This document shows positions 11,684 to 41,666 of a DNA stretch of 64,000 nucleotides, in pieces. The translations under genes were made by a program, and so were the position numbers. The number at the start of each line of letters is the position of its first letter. Positions within the stretch are counted from its first letter, which is position 1. Under the pieces are notes generated by a model that worked only from the letters and a program-made list of their open reading frames with translations, did not search any database and was not told the origin of the DNA. Source of the stretch: Ruegeria sp. AD91A (GTDB lineage: Bacteria; Pseudomonadota; Alphaproteobacteria; Rhodobacterales; Rhodobacteraceae); the NCBI RefSeq assembly GCF_003443535.1, contig NZ_CP031947.1, positions 1 to 64,000 of the forward strand, written 5' to 3'.

Positions 11684-12403
11684 ATGCAGATTGCGGGATG
11701 CCCTAAACCGGTGGACCAGGTGTCCAGTGTGCTGATAGTGGATGATCATCCGCTGTTCAGTGACGCGCTGGCCGCGGCATTGAAGCTGAGCTTCGAGAAC
11801 TGCCGAATTGAAAAAGCCGATACGCTGAAGCAGACACTTGAGATACTTGGCGCAGGCTTCAAGCCTGATCTGATCATGTTCGATCTGAAATTGCCGGACG
11901 TGACGGGTATCTCGGGTTTTCAGCAGCTCCGGCAGCGCTGTCCGAATGCGCCGGTTCTGGTAATATCGTCCCTGGCATCCGGAGAGCTGGTGCGATCGTT
12001 GCTGGACCACGGTGCGATGGGATTTCTGCCAAAAGATACGCCGGCGCAAACCCTGAAACACGCCATTCAGGAGATCACCTCTGGACGGAGATACGTGCCC
12101 ACCGAATACAACCGGGTCGAAGAGCTGAAGCCATCCGAAAGCACCGTTTATCAGTCCAGCCCCGAGCTTTCATCATTGACGCCGCAGCAGGTCAAAATTC
12201 TCAAGCTTATCTGCGTGGGCCAATCCAACAAGCAGATTGCATATGAGCTGTCGCTGGCCGAGGCGACGGTCAAGGCGCATATCACCGCTTTGCTGCGCCG
12301 CCTTGGGGTGCGCAACCGGACCCAGGCCGCTGTTCTGGTTGATTCAGTTGTCGCCCGACAGTCGCGACATGAGCCGGAGGTTAAATCCTTTCTTCAACAC
12401 TAG
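11684..12403 (+). CDS. LuxR/NarL-type response regulator (FlhR/ErbR-like)
   Basis: About 239 residues. The receiver domain has acidic residues in VLIVDDHPLFSD, the phospho-acceptor in MFDLKLPDVTG and the conserved Lys in FLPKDTPAQ. The LuxR helix-turn-helix is LTPQQVKILKLI..QSNKQIAYELSL..ATVKAHI. I chose ATG 11684, preceded by GGAGGAG at 11672-11678, over a TTG 66 bases upstream. Regulators of this type control PQQ alcohol oxidation (ErbR/AgmR in Pseudomonas) and formaldehyde oxidation (FlhR in Paracoccus). The FIST protein and hybrid kinase that follow are its likely partners. Confidence 0.85.
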   Translation: MQIAGCPKPVDQVSSVLIVDDHPLFSDALAAALKLSFENCRIEKADTLKQTLEILGAGFKPDLIMFDLKLPDVTGISGFQQLRQRCPNAPVLVISSLASGELVRSLLDHGAMGFLPKDTPAQTLKHAIQEITSGRRYVPTEYNRVEELKPSESTVYQSSPELSSLTPQQVKILKLICVGQSNKQIAYELSLAEATVKAHITALLRRLGVRNRTQAAVLVDSVVARQSRHEPEVKSFLQH

Positions 12404-12412
12404 GGGGCGCGC

Positions 12413-13570
12413 ATGCGGGATCTGGAGCATGAACCGAATTTCATTGCGATTGGCCGTTCCGTTGACTTGGACCCGACGACCGCTGTTGAAGAAGCCTGCG
12501 CGGAAATCGATTGCCTGCTGTCTTGCTTTGTCCTGGCCTTTATTCCCAGCACTCTTGATCCAGTCGAAGTGTCGCGTTGCCTGAACAGGAAACTCGCGGG
12601 TGTTCCTGTTTTCGGCTGTACCACGGCAGGACAAATCACGCGGTCGGGTTATGAATCGCATGCGCTTTTGCTGCTGGCCTTTCCGAAGTCCAACTTTCGA
12701 TGCTCGTCCATTTTGTTCGAATCGCTCAGACCGCTCAATTCAACGGAAACCGCTGCCACAGCGCAGCGACTGGCCGAAAGATTCCGCCATACGGCGGGGT
12801 GGAACAGGCTGGCGCTGGTTTTTACGGATGGATTGTCTAAGCAGGAAGACTTGTTGGTCTCAACGCTGGAAACCGTACTGGATGGATTGCCGATATTTGG
12901 CGGTTCTGCCGGGGATGGCCTTCAATATGAAGAGACGTTCGTTTTTCACGGTGGCAAGGCGCACAACAATGCTGCCGTCCTGTTGTTGATTGAAACCAAC
13001 CTTGGTTTTCAGGGCATAGGTTTTGATCATTTCCTGCCCATCGGATCAGAGATCATCATCACCGACGCCAACCCGGAAGAACGCGTGGTTTATGAGATAA
13101 ACGGGGCACCGGCGGCGCAGGAATATGCCCGATTGGTCGGGTGCGCTGCCGAGGATCTTTCGCCACTGGTATTTGCAGAAAACCCTCTGCTTCTCAGGCA
13201 AAACCTCAACTACTATGTACGTGCCATTCGTGAACCGATGGAGGGGGGGTCCCTATCCTTTCTCGCGGCGATTGATGACGGTCTGATCATGACACTGGGG
13301 CGTGGGAAGGAGATCATTGAAACGCTCAAAGCTGGGCTGAATGTGCGCGACAACACCGGAACCGCCCCGGATTTCATTCTTGGGTTCGACTGTATTCTGC
13401 GAAAACTGGAAATCGAACAGAAACAGTTGAGCAAACAGGTTTCGGATGTTTTGCAATCTCACCGGGTGGTTGGCTTCAATACCTACGGAGAACAGCAATC
13501 CGGCGTGCATATGAACCAGACCTTTGTGGGGGTCGCTTTCTTTGAGCCCGAGAAGCGAGACCTGAGCTGA
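12413..13570 (+). CDS. FIST-domain sensor protein (NosP-like)
   Basis: A 385-residue cytoplasmic protein with FIST N and FIST C domains. Motifs include VPVFGCTTAGQI near residue 62, LPIFGGSAGDGL near 160, and the C-terminal GFNTYGEQQSGVHMNQTFVG ending typical of FIST C. FIST domains bind small ligands, and the NosP subgroup binds haem and nitric oxide and controls the co-transcribed hybrid kinase NahK. Here the next gene, two bases downstream, is such a kinase. Haem binding is not proved by sequence, so the ligand is open. Confidence 0.85.
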   Translation: MRDLEHEPNFIAIGRSVDLDPTTAVEEACAEIDCLLSCFVLAFIPSTLDPVEVSRCLNRKLAGVPVFGCTTAGQITRSGYESHALLLLAFPKSNFRCSSILFESLRPLNSTETAATAQRLAERFRHTAGWNRLALVFTDGLSKQEDLLVSTLETVLDGLPIFGGSAGDGLQYEETFVFHGGKAHNNAAVLLLIETNLGFQGIGFDHFLPIGSEIIITDANPEERVVYEINGAPAAQEYARLVGCAAEDLSPLVFAENPLLLRQNLNYYVRAIREPMEGGSLSFLAAIDDGLIMTLGRGKEIIETLKAGLNVRDNTGTAPDFILGFDCILRKLEIEQKQLSKQVSDVLQSHRVVGFNTYGEQQSGVHMNQTFVGVAFFEPEKRDLS

Positions 13571-13572
13571 CC

Positions 13573-15828
13573 ATGCTGAATCCAGACGACCCGCCAGAGA
13601 TCCAGATATCCAAACAGGCCAAGATCATCGATGCGTTGATGCGGCGCGCCAACCGCCAGAAAGATGTGGGTCCGTCCGCCTTTCTGGCGTTTCAGTCGGC
13701 GATAGAGTTGCAGCAGCAGGTGATGGAGCAGAGCCGCGATCTGGAGCGCGCGACCACCGAACTTGAAAGCGCCAGGTACGAACGCGAACAAACCCGCAAG
13801 AGCCTCGTCAAGGCCTTGTCTTCCATGGAAGAAGGGTTCGCGCTGTTCACAGATGGTGAATTGAACCTGTGTAACGATTTGTTTCAGGCGATCTTCCCGG
13901 ACATGTCTGACGTTGTCGGGCCCGGCCTCAGCCTGGGTCGGTTTTTTCTGTTGGCGCAGAACAGCCCCGATTTCGTATCGTCCGACCATGGAATATCGAA
14001 AATGTTGGATACGCTTGAGCGCAATTGCCATACCGGGATGGTGTCCAGCGACGTGATCGAATTGCGTGGTGACCGTTGGTATCAACTCAGCGCACAATAC
14101 ACGTCGCCTCAGAATGTGGTCATTCTGCTAACCGATATCACATCCGTTGTTCGCAGGAACCGCGATGAAAAAGAAACCCTGATTGACCGGCAGGAAGACT
14201 ACCTTCAGGCGGTTTTCCAAAACATGAGCTCTGGCGTTTGTACATTTTCATCAGATACGAAGATCATGATGCACAATGCGCGGTTCCGGGAAATACTGAA
14301 CCTGCCGCTATCCGTCTTGCAGGGAAACATACCTGTTCAAACGCTTCTGGATCTTATGCGGACACGCGGGCTGATCAAGGCCGACGATGAACTCAGGATC
14401 GACAAGTGGCAACACGAGCTCAAAAGCCGCGGCTGGTTGCGCAAACGTGTGCGCGATGGATCAGACCGCGTATTGGACATTCAGGTCAACCAACTGCCGG
14501 ATGGTGGTTTTCTGGTCGAATTGAAAGACGTGACGTTTGAAGCACGTGCGACCGAAACCCTGGAAAACCGGGTTATGGAACGCACGGCAGAGTTGACCCA
14601 TGCCAACGCCAAGCTGGTTCAGGAATACGAAGAAAAAGCGCGGGTGGAAGAGGCGCTGCGGATCGCAAAGGAACGAGCCGAAGCTGCGGTCTCTTCCAAG
14701 ACACGATTTCTTGCGGCGGCCAGCCACGACCTGCTTCAGCCGATCAATGCTGCAAAACTCATGATCTCGACCCTGCTGGAGATCACGCGTGAGACAGAGC
14801 TTCATGAGATGATGGAGCGGTTAGAGGGTGCCTTTGGATCTGCTGAACAACTGTTGCACTCATTGCTGGATATATCGCGGCTCGAAACTACCGATCCAGA
14901 CACGGTCTCACCCACAGAAGTTAGTCTCGCTACGATAATTGCAGGGATACAGGGCGACCAAACGCTTGTCGCCGAGAACAAGAACGTGAGGCTTGATGTG
15001 GTTCCGTGTTCGGAAATCGTAAAATCCGATCCGGTCTACCTGTTGCGCTCGATCCAGAATCTGGTCGTGAACGCCATCCAGTACACCGAACCCGGAGGTC
15101 GGGTTCTGGTGGGGTGTCGCAGGCGTGGCGACAAGGTCATTTTGCAAGTCTGGGATACTGGTATCGGGATTGCGCGCAAGGACCAGGAACGCGTGTTCGA
15201 GGAATTCACGCGGGCCGAAAACGTGCCATTGGGTTCCGGCATGGGATTGGGTTTGTCTGTAGTAGACCGCGCCTGCCGACTTTTGGGCCACAAGCTTTCG
15301 CTTCGATCCAAACCCCGCATTGGTTCGGTGTTCAGCATAGAAATGGACAGGGTAGAAACAGAGAAAAGCGCCGTCGAACCGTTGGACCTTCTGGCCAATA
15401 CGGGCGATGTGCCGTTGGATTTCATCATTCTGGTGATCGAAAACGACCGTGATGTTTTGTTTGGGACAACGCAGTGGCTGGAACAAAACGGTGCCAGTGT
15501 TCTGCCGGCCCGGTCGCCGAAGGAAGCGATGCAATTCACAAAAGACATTGGAATGCCGCCGGATATCATTCTGGCCGACTACCAATTGGATGATGGGGAA
15601 ACCGGCGTTAATGCAATTCACCGGATCCGAGAGATGACGCAGACCCAAGTTCCGGCAATTCTGATCACCGCTAATCGCAGTGAAGCGTTACGCAAAGACG
15701 GATTGCGGCATGAGATTTCGGTTATGGCGAAACCAGTCAAACTGCCGCGGCTCCGGTCTTTGATCATCTGGAAAATTCAGAATGCTTTGCACACGCAAAC
15801 GCTCAATACCGACAAAAGTCGGCGGTGA
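13573..15828 (+). CDS. Hybrid sensor histidine kinase (NahK-like)
   Basis: 751 residues without obvious membrane spans. An N-terminal coiled coil (about 45-85) is followed by two PAS-like regions (about 85-195 and 215-320) and a second coiled coil. The dimerisation domain carries the phospho-acceptor in AASHDLLQPINAAKL. The ATPase boxes are NLVVNAIQYTEPGG, VWDTGIGI and GMGLGLSVV. A C-terminal receiver has DIILADYQLDDGETG and MAKPVKLP. The SHDLLQP H-box is characteristic of the NahK/ErcS' group. It is two bases from the FIST gene and follows a LuxR regulator, so the three form a signalling module. Confidence 0.85.
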   Translation: MLNPDDPPEIQISKQAKIIDALMRRANRQKDVGPSAFLAFQSAIELQQQVMEQSRDLERATTELESARYEREQTRKSLVKALSSMEEGFALFTDGELNLCNDLFQAIFPDMSDVVGPGLSLGRFFLLAQNSPDFVSSDHGISKMLDTLERNCHTGMVSSDVIELRGDRWYQLSAQYTSPQNVVILLTDITSVVRRNRDEKETLIDRQEDYLQAVFQNMSSGVCTFSSDTKIMMHNARFREILNLPLSVLQGNIPVQTLLDLMRTRGLIKADDELRIDKWQHELKSRGWLRKRVRDGSDRVLDIQVNQLPDGGFLVELKDVTFEARATETLENRVMERTAELTHANAKLVQEYEEKARVEEALRIAKERAEAAVSSKTRFLAAASHDLLQPINAAKLMISTLLEITRETELHEMMERLEGAFGSAEQLLHSLLDISRLETTDPDTVSPTEVSLATIIAGIQGDQTLVAENKNVRLDVVPCSEIVKSDPVYLLRSIQNLVVNAIQYTEPGGRVLVGCRRRGDKVILQVWDTGIGIARKDQERVFEEFTRAENVPLGSGMGLGLSVVDRACRLLGHKLSLRSKPRIGSVFSIEMDRVETEKSAVEPLDLLANTGDVPLDFIILVIENDRDVLFGTTQWLEQNGASVLPARSPKEAMQFTKDIGMPPDIILADYQLDDGETGVNAIHRIREMTQTQVPAILITANRSEALRKDGLRHEISVMAKPVKLPRLRSLIIWKIQNALHTQTLNTDKSRR

Positions 15829-21624: not shown

Positions 21625-22458
21625 ATGGATTTGAAAGTCATCTCGCAAAATCGCAGTTTCGGAGGTGAGCAGACTGTCTACTCCCACTCGTCCGAGACGT
21701 GTGATTGCGAGATGACCTTTGCTGTCTACCTGCCGCCTCAGGCCAAATCCGGGCCGGTGCCGGTGTTGTGGTACTTGTCCGGCCTGACCTGCACCCATGA
21801 AAACGCGATGACCAAGGGCGGATTTCAGGAGGCAGCCGCAGATTACGGCGTCGCGGTTGTGTTTCCCGATACGTCACCGCGAGGGGACAGTGTTGCCGAT
21901 GACGATGCTTATGATCTGGGGCAGGGGGCCGGTTTTTACGTGAACGCCACCCGGGACCCATGGCGGGCCCATTTCAGGATGTATGACTACATTGTCGACG
22001 AGCTGCGCGACATTGTACTGAAGAATTTCCCCGTGCAGGATCGTCACGGGATAACTGGTCATTCAATGGGTGGCCACGGCGCGATTACCATCGCCATACG
22101 CAACGCCGACAAATTCGGATCTCTTTCGGCATTTGCGCCGATTGCGCACCCGACGCGGTCGGATTGGGGCCGTAAACAGCTTAGCAGCTATCTCGGTGAC
22201 GACGAAAATACCTGGGTCGAGCATGACGCCACTCTGCTGCTGGAAGAGCACGGCTGGAAAGGTGACCTGCTGATCGATCAGGGCGCCGATGATCAGTTCC
22301 TTGATCTTCTTAAACCCGAAGCACTGGCCAATATGATGGCCAAGCGTCGCCAGCCCGGACAGATCAGAATCCAGGAAGGGTATGACCACTCGTATTTCTT
22401 CGTAAACAGTTTTGCGCGCGACCATGTCGAATGGCACGCGGAACGCCTCAACCAATGA
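21625..22458 (+). CDS. fghA: S-formylglutathione hydrolase
   Basis: 277 residues, an alpha/beta hydrolase that splits S-formylglutathione to formate and glutathione. The nucleophile elbow GHSMGGHG places the serine at residue 147. The family's N-terminal LSGLTCTHENAMTKGGFQ and the acid/base pair in DQGADDQFL and YDHSYFF are intact. It begins one base after flhA, completing the glutathione-dependent formaldehyde route. Confidence 0.95.
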   Translation: MDLKVISQNRSFGGEQTVYSHSSETCDCEMTFAVYLPPQAKSGPVPVLWYLSGLTCTHENAMTKGGFQEAAADYGVAVVFPDTSPRGDSVADDDAYDLGQGAGFYVNATRDPWRAHFRMYDYIVDELRDIVLKNFPVQDRHGITGHSMGGHGAITIAIRNADKFGSLSAFAPIAHPTRSDWGRKQLSSYLGDDENTWVEHDATLLLEEHGWKGDLLIDQGADDQFLDLLKPEALANMMAKRRQPGQIRIQEGYDHSYFFVNSFARDHVEWHAERLNQ

Positions 22459-22480
22459 AAACAGCAAGGAAAGATTGATA

Positions 22481-22870
22481 GTGATCAGAACGGTATTTGC
22501 AGCAACCTGCCTCATGCTTTCCCCCGCCTTCGCAAGCGCCGAAGGCGACCCCGAAGCGGGCGAGAAAGTCTTTCGCAAGTGCAAGGCGTGCCACGCGGTG
22601 GGCGAGGGGGCTGAAAATAAGGTAGGGCCGATGCTGAACGGTATTGTTGGACGTCAGGCCGCAAGCGTTGAAGGGTTTGGCTATTCACCGGTGTTGATTT
22701 CCCTGTCCGAAGAGGGGCTGGTCTGGACACCGGAAGAACTGAACGCGTTTCTGACAAAACCACGCGACTACGCGAAAGGGATCAAGATGACCTTCGCGGG
22801 GCTGCGAAAAGAGGACGATCGAGCGAACATCATCGCATATCTTGCGACCTTTGAGGACAACGGGTCGTAG
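22481..22870 (+). CDS. Class I cytochrome c (c2-like)
   Basis: About 129 residues. A signal peptide (VIRTVFAATCLMLSPAFASA) precedes the mature EGDPEAGEKVF. The haem motif CKACH is at 34-38, and the axial methionine is probably that in GIKMTFAGL. The family ends with NIIAYLATF as here. I chose GTG 22481; a TTG six bases upstream is possible. It is a small soluble periplasmic cytochrome and may accept electrons from XoxG and pass them to oxidase. It lies directly before the xoxF leader. Confidence 0.85.
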   Translation: MIRTVFAATCLMLSPAFASAEGDPEAGEKVFRKCKACHAVGEGAENKVGPMLNGIVGRQAASVEGFGYSPVLISLSEEGLVWTPEELNAFLTKPRDYAKGIKMTFAGLRKEDDRANIIAYLATFEDNGS

Positions 22871-22876
22871 GAGAGC

Positions 22877-22986
22877 GCATTGCTCACCCACCGATGCGAC
22901 CGGAAAACTACCGGTCCGGGCGAGCATTAACAGACACCGTAATCCGACCTGGGTGAGGTGTTGCAATGCAGAGAGAGATCTCTGCA
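22877..22986 (+). ncRNA. Candidate structured RNA leader of xoxF
   Basis: The 134-base gap before xoxF folds by inspection. Seven pairs join 22877-22883 (GCATTGC) to 22963-22969 (GCAATGC). Seven more join 22884-22890 to 22950-22956, leaving a six-base 3' bulge. Inside, 22894-22897 pairs with 22924-22927, and GACCGG at 22898-22903 pairs with CCGGTC at 22911-22916 across a seven-base loop. A second hairpin, TGCAGAGA (22967-22974) with TCTCTGCA (22979-22986), shares bases with the outer helix, so both cannot form fully. The Shine-Dalgarno AGGGAGGAG (22991-22999) follows. No known riboswitch class was recognised. It is a prediction without alignment. Confidence 0.5.
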
Positions 22987-23004
22987 CGAAAGGGAGGAGA
23001 TTGA

Positions 23005-24807
23005 ATGAAAAATCTATCGCTTTGGACCTCCGGGATTGCCATTGCACTGGCCACCGCGGCCTATGCAAATGACGACCTGGTTGCCCAGATGGAGAACGCG
23101 AAACAGTGGGCGATCCAGACGGGTGACTACAAAAATCAGCGCTATTCCGCACTGGATCAGATCAACGCAGACAATGTTGGTGATCTACAGGTCGCATGGA
23201 CCTTCTCGACCGGCGTTCTGCGCGGTCATGAGGGTTCGCCGCTGGTGATTGGCGACATGATGTATGTCCACACGCCGTTCCCGAACATTGTCTATGCTCT
23301 GGATCTGGCCAATGACGGCAAAATCGTCTGGAAGTATGAGCCTAAGCAGGACCCGGACGTGATTCCGGTTATGTGCTGTGACACGGTGAACCGTGGCGTG
23401 GCTTACGCTGATGGCAAGATTTTCCTGCATCAGGCCGACACCAAGGTTGTGGCGCTGGATGCCAAGTCCGGCGATGTCGTGTGGGAAGTCCAGAATGGTG
23501 ACCCGGCGATTGGTGAAACCAACACAGCCACAGTGTTGCCGATCAAGGACAAGGTCATTGTCGGTATCTCGGGTGGTGAATTTGGTGTGCGCGGGTCGGT
23601 TACGGCCTATGACATGAACTCGGGCGAGCAGGTTTGGCGCGCATATTCCATGGGACCGGACTCCGATATCCTGGTTGATCCTGAAAAAACCACCCATCTG
23701 GGCAAGCCGGTTGGCGCGGATTCCGGAACCAACACGTGGGAAGGCGACCAATGGAAAATTGGTGGCGGCACCACCTGGGGTTGGTATTCGGCCGATCTGG
23801 ACGAAAACCTGATGTACTACGGCACCGGGAACCCGTCGACATGGAACCCGGCGCAGCGTCCGGGCGACAATCGCTGGTCGATGACAGTCATGGCCCGCGA
23901 TATCGATACCGGTATGGCGCGTTGGTTCTATCAGATGACGCCACATGACGAATGGGACTATGACGGCATCAATGAAATGATCCTTTCGGAGCAGGAAATT
24001 GATGGCGAGCAGCGCAAACTGCTGACCCATTTCGATCGGAACGGTCTTGGTTACACCATGGACCGGGTGACGGGTGAATTGCTGGTGGCCGAGAAGTTCG
24101 ATCCGGTGGTCAACTGGACCACGGGCGTCGACATGGATCCCAACAGCGAAACCTACGGTCGTCCTGCTGTTGTTGCTCAATACTCAACCGAGCAGAATGG
24201 CGAGGACGTGAACTCGACCGGTATCTGCCCGGCTGCTCTGGGCACCAAGGACCAACAGCCCGCAGCCTATTCGCCAAAGACCGAGCTTATGTACGTGCCG
24301 ACAAACCACGTCTGCATGGACTATGAGCCGTTCCGCGTGTCTTACACCGCCGGTCAGCCCTACGTGGGTGCGACGCTGGCGATGTATCCGGCGCCGGACA
24401 GCCATGGCGGTATGGGCAATTTCATCGCCTGGGACAACACCGACGGTTCCATCAAGTGGTCGATCCCCGAGCAGTTCTCGGTTTGGTCGGGCGCTCTGGC
24501 AACGGCAGGTGACATCGTGTTCTATGGCACGCTTGAAGGGTATCTGAAGGCTGTGCATGCCGAGACAGGTGAAGAACTGTATAAGTTCAAGACGCCCTCA
24601 GGCATTATCGGAAACGTGATGACCTACGAGCAGGGTGGTAAGCAGTATATCGGCATCCTGTCGGGTGTTGGTGGCTGGGCCGGTATTGGTCTGGCGGCTG
24701 GTCTGACCAATCCCAATGACGGTCTGGGCGCCGTGGGTGGCTATGCTGCTCTCAGTGATTACACCGCGCTGGGCGGTCAGCTGACGGTGTTCGCACTGCC
24801 GAACTAA
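23005..24807 (+). CDS. xoxF: Lanthanide-dependent methanol dehydrogenase XoxF
   Basis: 600 residues; signal peptide to about residue 21. A periplasmic PQQ enzyme oxidising methanol, and possibly formaldehyde or ethanol. Diagnostic residues are the vicinal disulfide in [10 protein letters not shown] (124-125), a Glu in GGEFGVRG (192), an Asn in GTGNPSTW (276), the catalytic Asp 318 and the extra Asp 320 in HDEWDYDG. Calcium-type MxaF has Ala at the last position, so this is a lanthanide enzyme. Tryptophan-docking repeats of the eight-blade propeller are present. It is followed by xoxG and xoxJ, the standard order. The nearby pqq and lut-like genes fit. Confidence 0.97.
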
Positions 24808-40923: not shown

Positions 40924-41666
40924 GTCGCAACCTCGGTTCGGGACAGGAACCAGTCGGGCAGGGTTTGATCCCCCCGCAGGCTGCCTGTCTGCCCACTGGC
41001 AATAATCTGACCGCGATGCAGAACCAGCAGCTGGTCGTCGTCGCGCACTTCATCTGTCAGGTGCGTGGCCCACAAGATGCACAACCCCTGTTCCGCCAGG
41101 TCGTGCACATGGTCGGTTATCGCGTGCCGTGCCGCGGCATCAAGCCCAACTGTTGGCTCGTCCAACAGCAACACCGATGGTTCGTGCAGCAGGGCACGAG
41201 CCAGTTCCATCCGACGGCGATGACCACCATTAAGATCGCGTACACGTTCCCCGGCACGTTCCCGCATGTTCAGCCGATCCAGCGCTGCGTCGATACGGTC
41301 GGGGACATCGGATCGAGGTAGCCCATGCAGCGCGGCAAAATAGGTCATGTTCTGGCGTACCGTCAAACCCAGATCCAGTGTCGGTTGCTGAAAGACCACG
41401 CCGAGCTTTGCCAGCGCCTTGCGCGGGGATTGGCGAAGATTATGGCCTGCGACCGTGATTTCACCATCTGGCGCTACTAGCAATCGCGTGAGCAACGACA
41501 CCAGTGTCGATTTCCCAGCCCCATTCGGACCAAGCAGACCGCAGAACGTCCCCGCCAACACGTCAAAAGAGACAGCATCCAAAGCCGTCTTGGCGCCATA
41601 GTGAAAACTCAGGTCGCGTACCGCGAGACCAGGATTGGATTCCGCCGAAGGGCGCGCGTCTGACAT
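40920..41666 (-). CDS. ABC ATPase of PQQ alcohol systems (LutE/PedB-like)
   Basis: 248 residues. Walker A GPNGAGKST, Q-loop VVFQQPTLDLGL, a signature replaced by LNGGHRRR, Walker B VLLLDEPTVGLD and H-loop WATHL. The LNGGHRRR signature is typical of the PQQ-linked ABC ATPase group. I chose ATG 41666, preceded by GGAGGAAGA; a longer frame exists upstream without support. It is the first gene of a run through permease, kinase, regulator and pqq genes on the minus strand. Confidence 0.87.
   Translation of the reverse strand: MSDARPSAESNPGLAVRDLSFHYGAKTALDAVSFDVLAGTFCGLLGPNGAGKSTLVSLLTRLLVAPDGEITVAGHNLRQSPRKALAKLGVVFQQPTLDLGLTVRQNMTYFAALHGLPRSDVPDRIDAALDRLNMRERAGERVRDLNGGHRRRMELARALLHEPSVLLLDEPTVGLDAAARHAITDHVHDLAEQGLCILWATHLTDEVRDDDQLLVLHRGQIIASGQTGSLRGDQTLPDWFLSRTEVAT

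Follow-up and report, generated by a model that had tools for sequence, protein, structure and literature searches.

The 134-base gap (positions 22871-23004) between the stop codon of a c-type cytochrome gene and the ATG of xoxF at 23005, whose length the original prediction gave correctly, carries a leader RNA of three hairpins that is kept across the Roseobacter branch. It is of this conserved structure alone that we are highly confident. The most likely mechanism, to which we assign a probability of roughly 0.35, would be post-transcriptional control of xoxF by sRNAs of the CcsR/ar14 type acting through the leader. Its main rival, close behind, is an element that governs mRNA stability. Throughout, the window denotes the whole stretch of 64,000 nucleotides that was analyzed.

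The xoxF locus and the hairpins of its leader

The neighborhood of xoxF in the window is a methanol-oxidation locus (Table 1). Encoded near the gene are S-(hydroxymethyl)glutathione dehydrogenase (TIGR02818), S-formylglutathione hydrolase (TIGR02821), a methanol-related cytochrome (TIGR03874), a MoxJ-like protein (TIGR03871) and a CXXCW protein (TIGR03865), all with scores above cut-offs. Judged from its name, XoxF is presumably the lanthanide type of methanol dehydrogenase; the xoxF of the closest named relative, an uncultured Ruegeria, is 99% identical. Genes at 34.6-37.7 kb of the window we take to be pqq-like, and the short gene listed as pqqA is presumed to be this gene from its sequence. 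At 11684-15828, beside the methanol genes, are encoded a response regulator, a protein that by eye is FIST-like, and a hybrid kinase whose nearest match, NahK, scores below cut-off.

Table 1. Positions of the leader hairpins, neighboring genes and candidate partners
Feature	Position	Strand	Remarks
c-type cytochrome ORF 5' of xoxF	22412..22870	+	ORF; NF043008 97.6 bits, under cut-off
Hairpin A	22881..22926	+	lower stem 22881-22885/22922-22926; upper hairpin 22898-22903/22911-22916
Hairpin B	22934..22961	+	outer stem 22934-22938/22957-22961; inner stem 22942-22945/22951-22954
Hairpin C (eight-pair hairpin of the original prediction)	22967..22986	+	stops 4 nt 5' of the Shine-Dalgarno (SD)
xoxF Shine-Dalgarno, AGGGAGGAG	22991..22999	+	9-nt complement of the CCUCCUCCCU loop of CcsR-type sRNAs
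xoxF, PQQ-dependent methanol dehydrogenase, 600 aa	23005..24807	+	TIGR03075, 770 bits, above cut-off
pqqA (presumed), 33 aa	37637..37738	-	SD region (AGGAGGAGGA) complements the CcsR loop over 9 nt (GGAGGAGGA)
CcsR/cuckoo array (L172), six CCUCC-loop hairpins	~321.1 kb of G000:C1	-	3' of a DUF1127 gene

A close xoxF is present in 9 of 54 genus genomes, and when the nine leaders were aligned RNAalifold yielded hairpins A, B and C. This fold is paired in 97.1% of 206 alignment cells and has six pairs with two-sided changes, a result equalled in 0/500 shuffles. An alignment of 17 leaders, which was itself fitted to the model, has 95.3% of cells paired and two-sided changes at 16/23 pairs, against 32-53% in slid controls. 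G-U pairs occur among the substitutions of these 17 leaders and suggest an RNA rather than a DNA palindrome.

The three hairpins differ in their individual properties. Hairpin A, in which an A.C mismatch (22886/22921) is followed by pairs 22887/22919 and 22889/22918, is paired in 95.8% of cells in the nine leaders and in 94.4% in the 17, with two-sided changes at 8/8 pairs in the larger set; folded alone it reaches a z of -4.12, and in longer context its probability is 0.29 with one choice of ends and 0.98 with another. The sequence of hairpin B is strikingly similar across the genus. Its outer and inner stems are paired in 100% and 94.4% of cells (nine leaders) or 98.6% and 92.9% (17 leaders), with pair probabilities of 0.79-0.88, and hairpin C is paired in 98.1% and 95.1%, respectively. 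Hairpins B and C have probabilities of 0.99-1.0 in a longer sequence context. For the entire leader (22860-23000), the advantage in folding over shuffles is only moderate (z -1.95, with 7/200 equally good). A pseudoknot between the loop of hairpin B and the SD was considered by eye and dropped because that loop varies, and the leader contains no site of the intrinsic terminator or attenuator kind (a GC hairpin followed by a U-run).

Stable, covarying hairpins that begin 10 nt downstream of the cytochrome stop codon (22868-22870), in a region with no sigma-70-like site between 20100 and 23100 of the window, are consistent with an intercistronic processing or stability element, that is, an RNase barrier or cleavage boundary by which the level of xoxF mRNA would be set apart from that of the upstream genes. 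The hairpins of the puf operon in Rhodobacter are of this barrier or processing type. We consider such an element a possible explanation, though a tentative one, and return to it where the loops of related leaders bear on it.

In searches with two models of the leader, strong matches were confined to the places before xoxF. Model R1 had 17 matches at E<=1 among 99 sources: nine training leaders, seven new xoxF leaders (L034, L035, L037, L040, L120, L122 and L124) and one false place (window 61618, E 0.81). Most other xoxF loci supplied gave no match to R1. With model R2 there were 12 untrained matches at E<=1, ten of them xoxF leaders and the remaining two an antisense place in L100 and, again, window 61618. 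Across 248 family genomes R2 reached E values under 1e-5 at four places, each of which is an xoxF leader according to its coordinates. A further 23 places were weak (E 0.0027-0.05), and those in G067, G106, G217 and G239 lie away from xoxF. Since R2 missed genomes that have xoxF (e.g., G002), absence of an R2 match says little. The window's own genome holds one strong match to the leader model. A search of 394 family genomes with the leader DNA returned the window itself, one 29-nt match and otherwise weak matches (E 0.0095 to 1). The 29-nt match (90%, E 4.7e-4) concerns the region of hairpins B and C. It comes from a genome for which no xoxF is listed (L002, G382:C72:49328-49356), has surroundings unlike an xoxF leader, and is probably due to chance.

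The nested fold and the idea of a switch

The original prediction drew a different, nested fold for the leader, and all 24 of its pairs are present in the sequence. Two seven-pair helices (22877-22883/22963-22969 and 22884-22890/22950-22956) are separated by a 6-base 3' bulge, inner arms (22894-22897/22924-22927 and 22898-22903/22911-22916) are separated by a 7-base 3' bulge, and hairpin C overlaps the outer helix at 22967-22969, all as described. Two perfect 7-bp helices so arranged were found in 0/2000 dinucleotide shuffles, and base composition does not account for them. We nevertheless reject the nested fold as the conserved one. Its energy is -27.8 kcal/mol as drawn and -38.8 kcal/mol when the two outer helices are enforced and the rest is left free, compared with a minimum free energy (MFE) of -45.9 kcal/mol, which leaves the enforced fold about 7 kcal/mol above the MFE even with its remainder free; the pair probability of the first outer helix is 0.11-0.12 and that of the second about 0. 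Among the nine genus leaders, 66.8% of 205 cells are paired in the nested fold (18/500 shuffles equally high), its two-sided changes are not above those of shuffles (145/500 equally high), and the double outer 7-bp helix was found by the same strict rule in 0/8 congeneric leaders.

What stands of the prediction is that the xoxF leader is a conserved RNA of regulatory appearance; it shows compensatory changes, which lie in the three-hairpin fold. The nested outer fold, and with it exclusive pairing in a riboswitch-like layout, is not borne out as conserved structure, being private to this species among the nine genus leaders; it may form as an alternative peculiar to the species. Assignment to no known riboswitch class agrees with our scan of the window, in which Rfam gave 0 matches at gathering score. 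Nor did any xoxF leader among 20 relatives match at that score, and the sole match of the window's leader at E<=5 was a CRISPR-repeat (E 1.2). Two fluoride riboswitches were seen near a Methylobacterium xoxF (L110, 1278-1350 on the minus and 2199-2270 on the plus strand), outside the xoxF leader. These analyses gave no evidence in support of lanthanide or PQQ sensing by the leader.

A conformational switch responding to a ligand such as lanthanide, PQQ or formaldehyde would operate by formation of the outer helices, upon which hairpin C would open and its 3' arm would cover the SD. The computed fold of the window behaves in this manner: enforcing the outer helices (the -38.8 kcal/mol fold) breaks hairpin C and pairs 22977-22983 with 22996-23002, a predicted rearrangement that covers the SD and is switch-like. 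The SD-covering helix has -7.4 kcal/mol in the local fold of the window's own leader and is strong only there, being absent from L112 and L114-L118, weaker in L113 and replaced by a different fold in L119. Hairpins A and B could also pair with each other, the 5' arm of A joining the 3' arm of B, in 83.6% of cells. This arm-to-arm alternative, in which only 1/7 pairs has a two-sided change, and the close similarity of hairpin B within the genus would also suit a switch. The outer double helix missing from all eight congeneric leaders, the lack of an excess of two-sided changes in the nested fold and the lack of an Rfam match all argue against it. A ligand switch in this one species finds little support from relatives, and we regard it as improbable.

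A purine-rich loop in related leaders

Comparison was extended to 124 xoxF leaders, 112 of them distinct, after 13 of a batch of 18 regions had been dropped because they gave no tblastn anchor; relatedness among the leaders inflates counts. A GGAGG upstream of the SD is present in 81/112 leaders and missing from 31, compared with 37.9 +/- 4.8 in shuffles. Under a strict rule that demands a stem of at least 7 pairs and a GGAGGA-type motif in its loop, 53/112 leaders have the hairpin and 59 fail, a density of 3.4 per kb versus 0.155 per kb elsewhere on both strands of the same loci. Stems of the 51 listed hairpins comprise 46 distinct 6-mers, and the loops consist mostly of G and A. These GGAGGA-rich loops on variable stems are left unexplained by a stability element.

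The loop of hairpin A, GGAGGA-rich in many relatives, is GGAAAACUA-like in the window, and the GGAGG motif is missing from hairpin A of the window, L112, L113 and L114. Since L115-L119 and the outgroups retain it, the motif was most simply lost in the window's species and three near relatives. A stability element accounts for the window's loop-less leader without added assumptions.

Other groups present the motif in different surroundings. Leaders of Rhizobiaceae, together with L093 and L148 of the window's own family, have a branched leader in which GAGGAGACC occurs together with a loop resembling GCAA and which shows little covariation (two-sided change in 2/20 pairs). A near-identical branched leader is common to L060, L062, L063, L073, L074, L077, L078, L082, L088, L093 and L148, a resemblance that suggests operon exchange or strong constraint. 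The Paracoccus hairpin is placed 43-48 nt ahead of the xoxF start, just 3' of a promoter-like TTGACG preceded by a ATACTTTAGGG-like word (by eye), an arrangement that speaks against a stability element, as an operon boundary would be needless there. The succession of a ATACTTTAGGG / AGACTTTAGGG-like word and TTGACG upstream of xoxF was seen in L064, L068, L069, L070, L084, L087, L089, L095 and L096, and is likely a regulator site. Paracoccus leaders provided no compensatory evidence and no useful consensus, their MAFFT alignment being misregistered. Seven of nine leaders of paralogous PQQ dehydrogenases have no similar feature; the motif of L268, by eye, belongs to a different start as its SD. 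The other two precede mxaF-like genes of Paracoccus (L263 and L264) and resemble xoxF in that a purine-loop hairpin-like stretch with GGGAGG or GGGGGGA was noticed by eye about 48 nt from the start.

Two readings of the upstream GGAGG as something other than an RNA docking site can be weighed here. A leader peptide is rejected, as a start codon soon follows the upstream GGAGG in 17/95 cases (0.18) versus 0.25 at random places, i.e., no more commonly than by chance. An RNA-binding protein might instead recognize the GGA-rich loop, whose constancy on freely varying stems would fit such recognition. The best-known GGA-loop protein is CsrA. A search for csrA found it in 0/10 genomes (the control was positive in 3/14), and a CsrA-regulated leader was consequently rejected. 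Recognition could fall to a DUF1127 protein of the CcaF1 kind, given that DUF1127 genes occur in 8/8 genomes and that CcaF1 binds RNA (PMC10253847). The window, however, lacks the loop motif that such a protein would read, and we hold protein recognition to be doubtful.

Small RNAs as candidate partners and known systems

The sRNAs of the ar14 family carry an ultraconserved CCUCCUCCC in their loops on highly different stems, and one of them silences ntrB at its translation start by means of such loops (PMC10746234). PMC8307010 and PMC10253847 describe CcsR1-4 of R. sphaeroides as targeting flhR and modulating C1 metabolism. Constant loops on variable stems make these sRNAs the mirror image of the xoxF leader hairpins. 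The array of the window's own genome (Table 1) comprises six loop hairpins behind a DUF1127 gene, five with CCUCCUCCC and one with CUCCUCCC; it matches RF02791 with 45.1 bits (E 3.3e-8; gathering 65.3) and RF02344 with E 1.1e-6, both under gathering. Each CcsR reportedly has two such loops. Eleven loop hairpins of this kind were seen in the relative G002 (L186). When 30 loci at DUF1127 places were scanned, CCUCCUCCC-loop arrays were found in 7/8 genomes, with none seen in the scanned loci of G219. Of the four genomes in which hairpin A lacks the loop motif (those of the window, L112, L113 and L114), three were scanned, and CcsR arrays are present in all three (L172, L176 and L171).

Complementarity to the sRNA loop is concentrated in xoxF leaders. 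A match of 8 nt or more to the CcsR/ar14 loop complement is present in 39/112 leaders, where 3.4 are expected from mononucleotide shuffles; 27 of these 39 matches (27/112 leaders) fall within the strict hairpin loop and 12 outside it. For the complement of the 16S tail, the corresponding numbers are 5/112 and 2.8. In 172 control leaders (the window and the L031-L110 loci, taken by a simple ORF rule) the CcsR-loop complement occurs in 2 (one of which holds the pqqA SD) and the 16S-tail complement in 0. In a class-wide sample, a start could be assigned at 27/28 loci, in some cases with a weak SD score, and 1/27 leaders had an 8-nt CcsR-loop match. These counts bear on a further reading, in which the purine loop would pair with the 16S anti-SD and serve as a ribosome standby site or SD-like stabilizer. 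The GGAGG core common to the 81 leaders would be suited to that role; the longer matches, however, track the sRNA loop and not the 16S tail (39 vs 5 of 112), and hairpin A of the window has no purine loop to offer. We therefore judge a standby function to be unlikely.

The SD itself provides a second potential contact. A match of at least 8 nt between the SD and the CcsR-loop complement was found in 41/112 xoxF genes versus 17/411 control genes. The SD of the window is only partly free. Its bases have unpaired probabilities of 0.27-1.0 when the leader is folded by itself, and six of the nine fall below 0.25 in two longer contexts that include coding sequence. AGATT of the SD region has a complement, AATCT, within the opening codons of xoxF (22998-23014), and pairing of the two may explain the low accessibility computed with coding sequence. 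Ranking 60 window starts by duplex energy with the sRNA loop placed pqqA second, xoxF third, the response regulator at 11684 sixth and adhI ninth, the top position being taken by an ABC-ATPase-like ORF at 41666 that is no known C1 gene. The response regulator is FlhR-like by position only; its SD is likewise complementary to the CcsR loop.

In the mechanism we propose, a loop of a CcsR/ar14-type sRNA would dock on the hairpin loop of the leader and also on the xoxF Shine-Dalgarno, and the docked sRNA would lower xoxF translation under stress, such that less formaldehyde would be made. Since hairpin A of the window is devoid of the loop motif, loop docking fails here as it stands and only the SD contact is possible. 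In the window's species and its three near relatives at most that contact would remain, only AGGGAGGAG fitting the sRNA loop, and hairpins A-C may be mainly spacing or stability elements. A broader formulation, which we offer more speculatively and consider rather unlikely in its entirety, is that evolution equipped the xoxF leaders of Rhodobacterales and Rhizobiaceae with a dedicated hairpin displaying a bait loop (GGGAGGAG) for multi-looped CcsR/ar14 sRNAs, a conserved kissing-loop target by which one sRNA would grip both loop and ribosome-binding site, for general stress control. Perhaps pqqA and mxaF would be under the same control. The literature searched, of which our coverage was partial, contained no report of a structured xoxF leader or of regulation of the gene by an sRNA.

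With a conserved leader, xoxF gains a post-transcriptional layer, and the presence of the loop in many relatives leads to a sharp and cheap prediction, namely that CcsR-type sRNAs bind the leader. If this is true, rare-earth methanol oxidation would be linked to stress RNAs for which an influence on C1 metabolism has already been reported.

The leader can be compared with four known systems. Like the riboswitches of Rfam 15, it is structured, precedes a ribosome-binding site and has a possible alternative fold in this species; unlike them, it yields no match at gathering score, and the alternative fold is not common to congeners. Leaders under CsrA/RsmA similarly have a stem, 5' of the SD, that is capped by a GGA-rich loop, but csrA was found in 0/10 genomes searched. 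Intercistronic hairpins of the puf type also occupy an operon gap, whereas the xoxF relatives have a purine loop kept in sequence and, in Paracoccus, a promoter-like word before the hairpin (by eye). The target site described for an ar14 sRNA (PMC10746234) is a translation start, in contrast to the putative site in an upstream hairpin loop of the xoxF relatives; hairpin A of the window is itself without the motif, and xoxF is a candidate target only. With targets of the CcsR/ar14 'cuckoo' sRNAs (RF02791, RF02344) it nonetheless shares the complementarity of many xoxF leader loops to CCUCCUCCC, the connection to C1 metabolism reported for CcsR through flhR (PMC8307010, PMC10253847), and a genome that carries the sRNA array.
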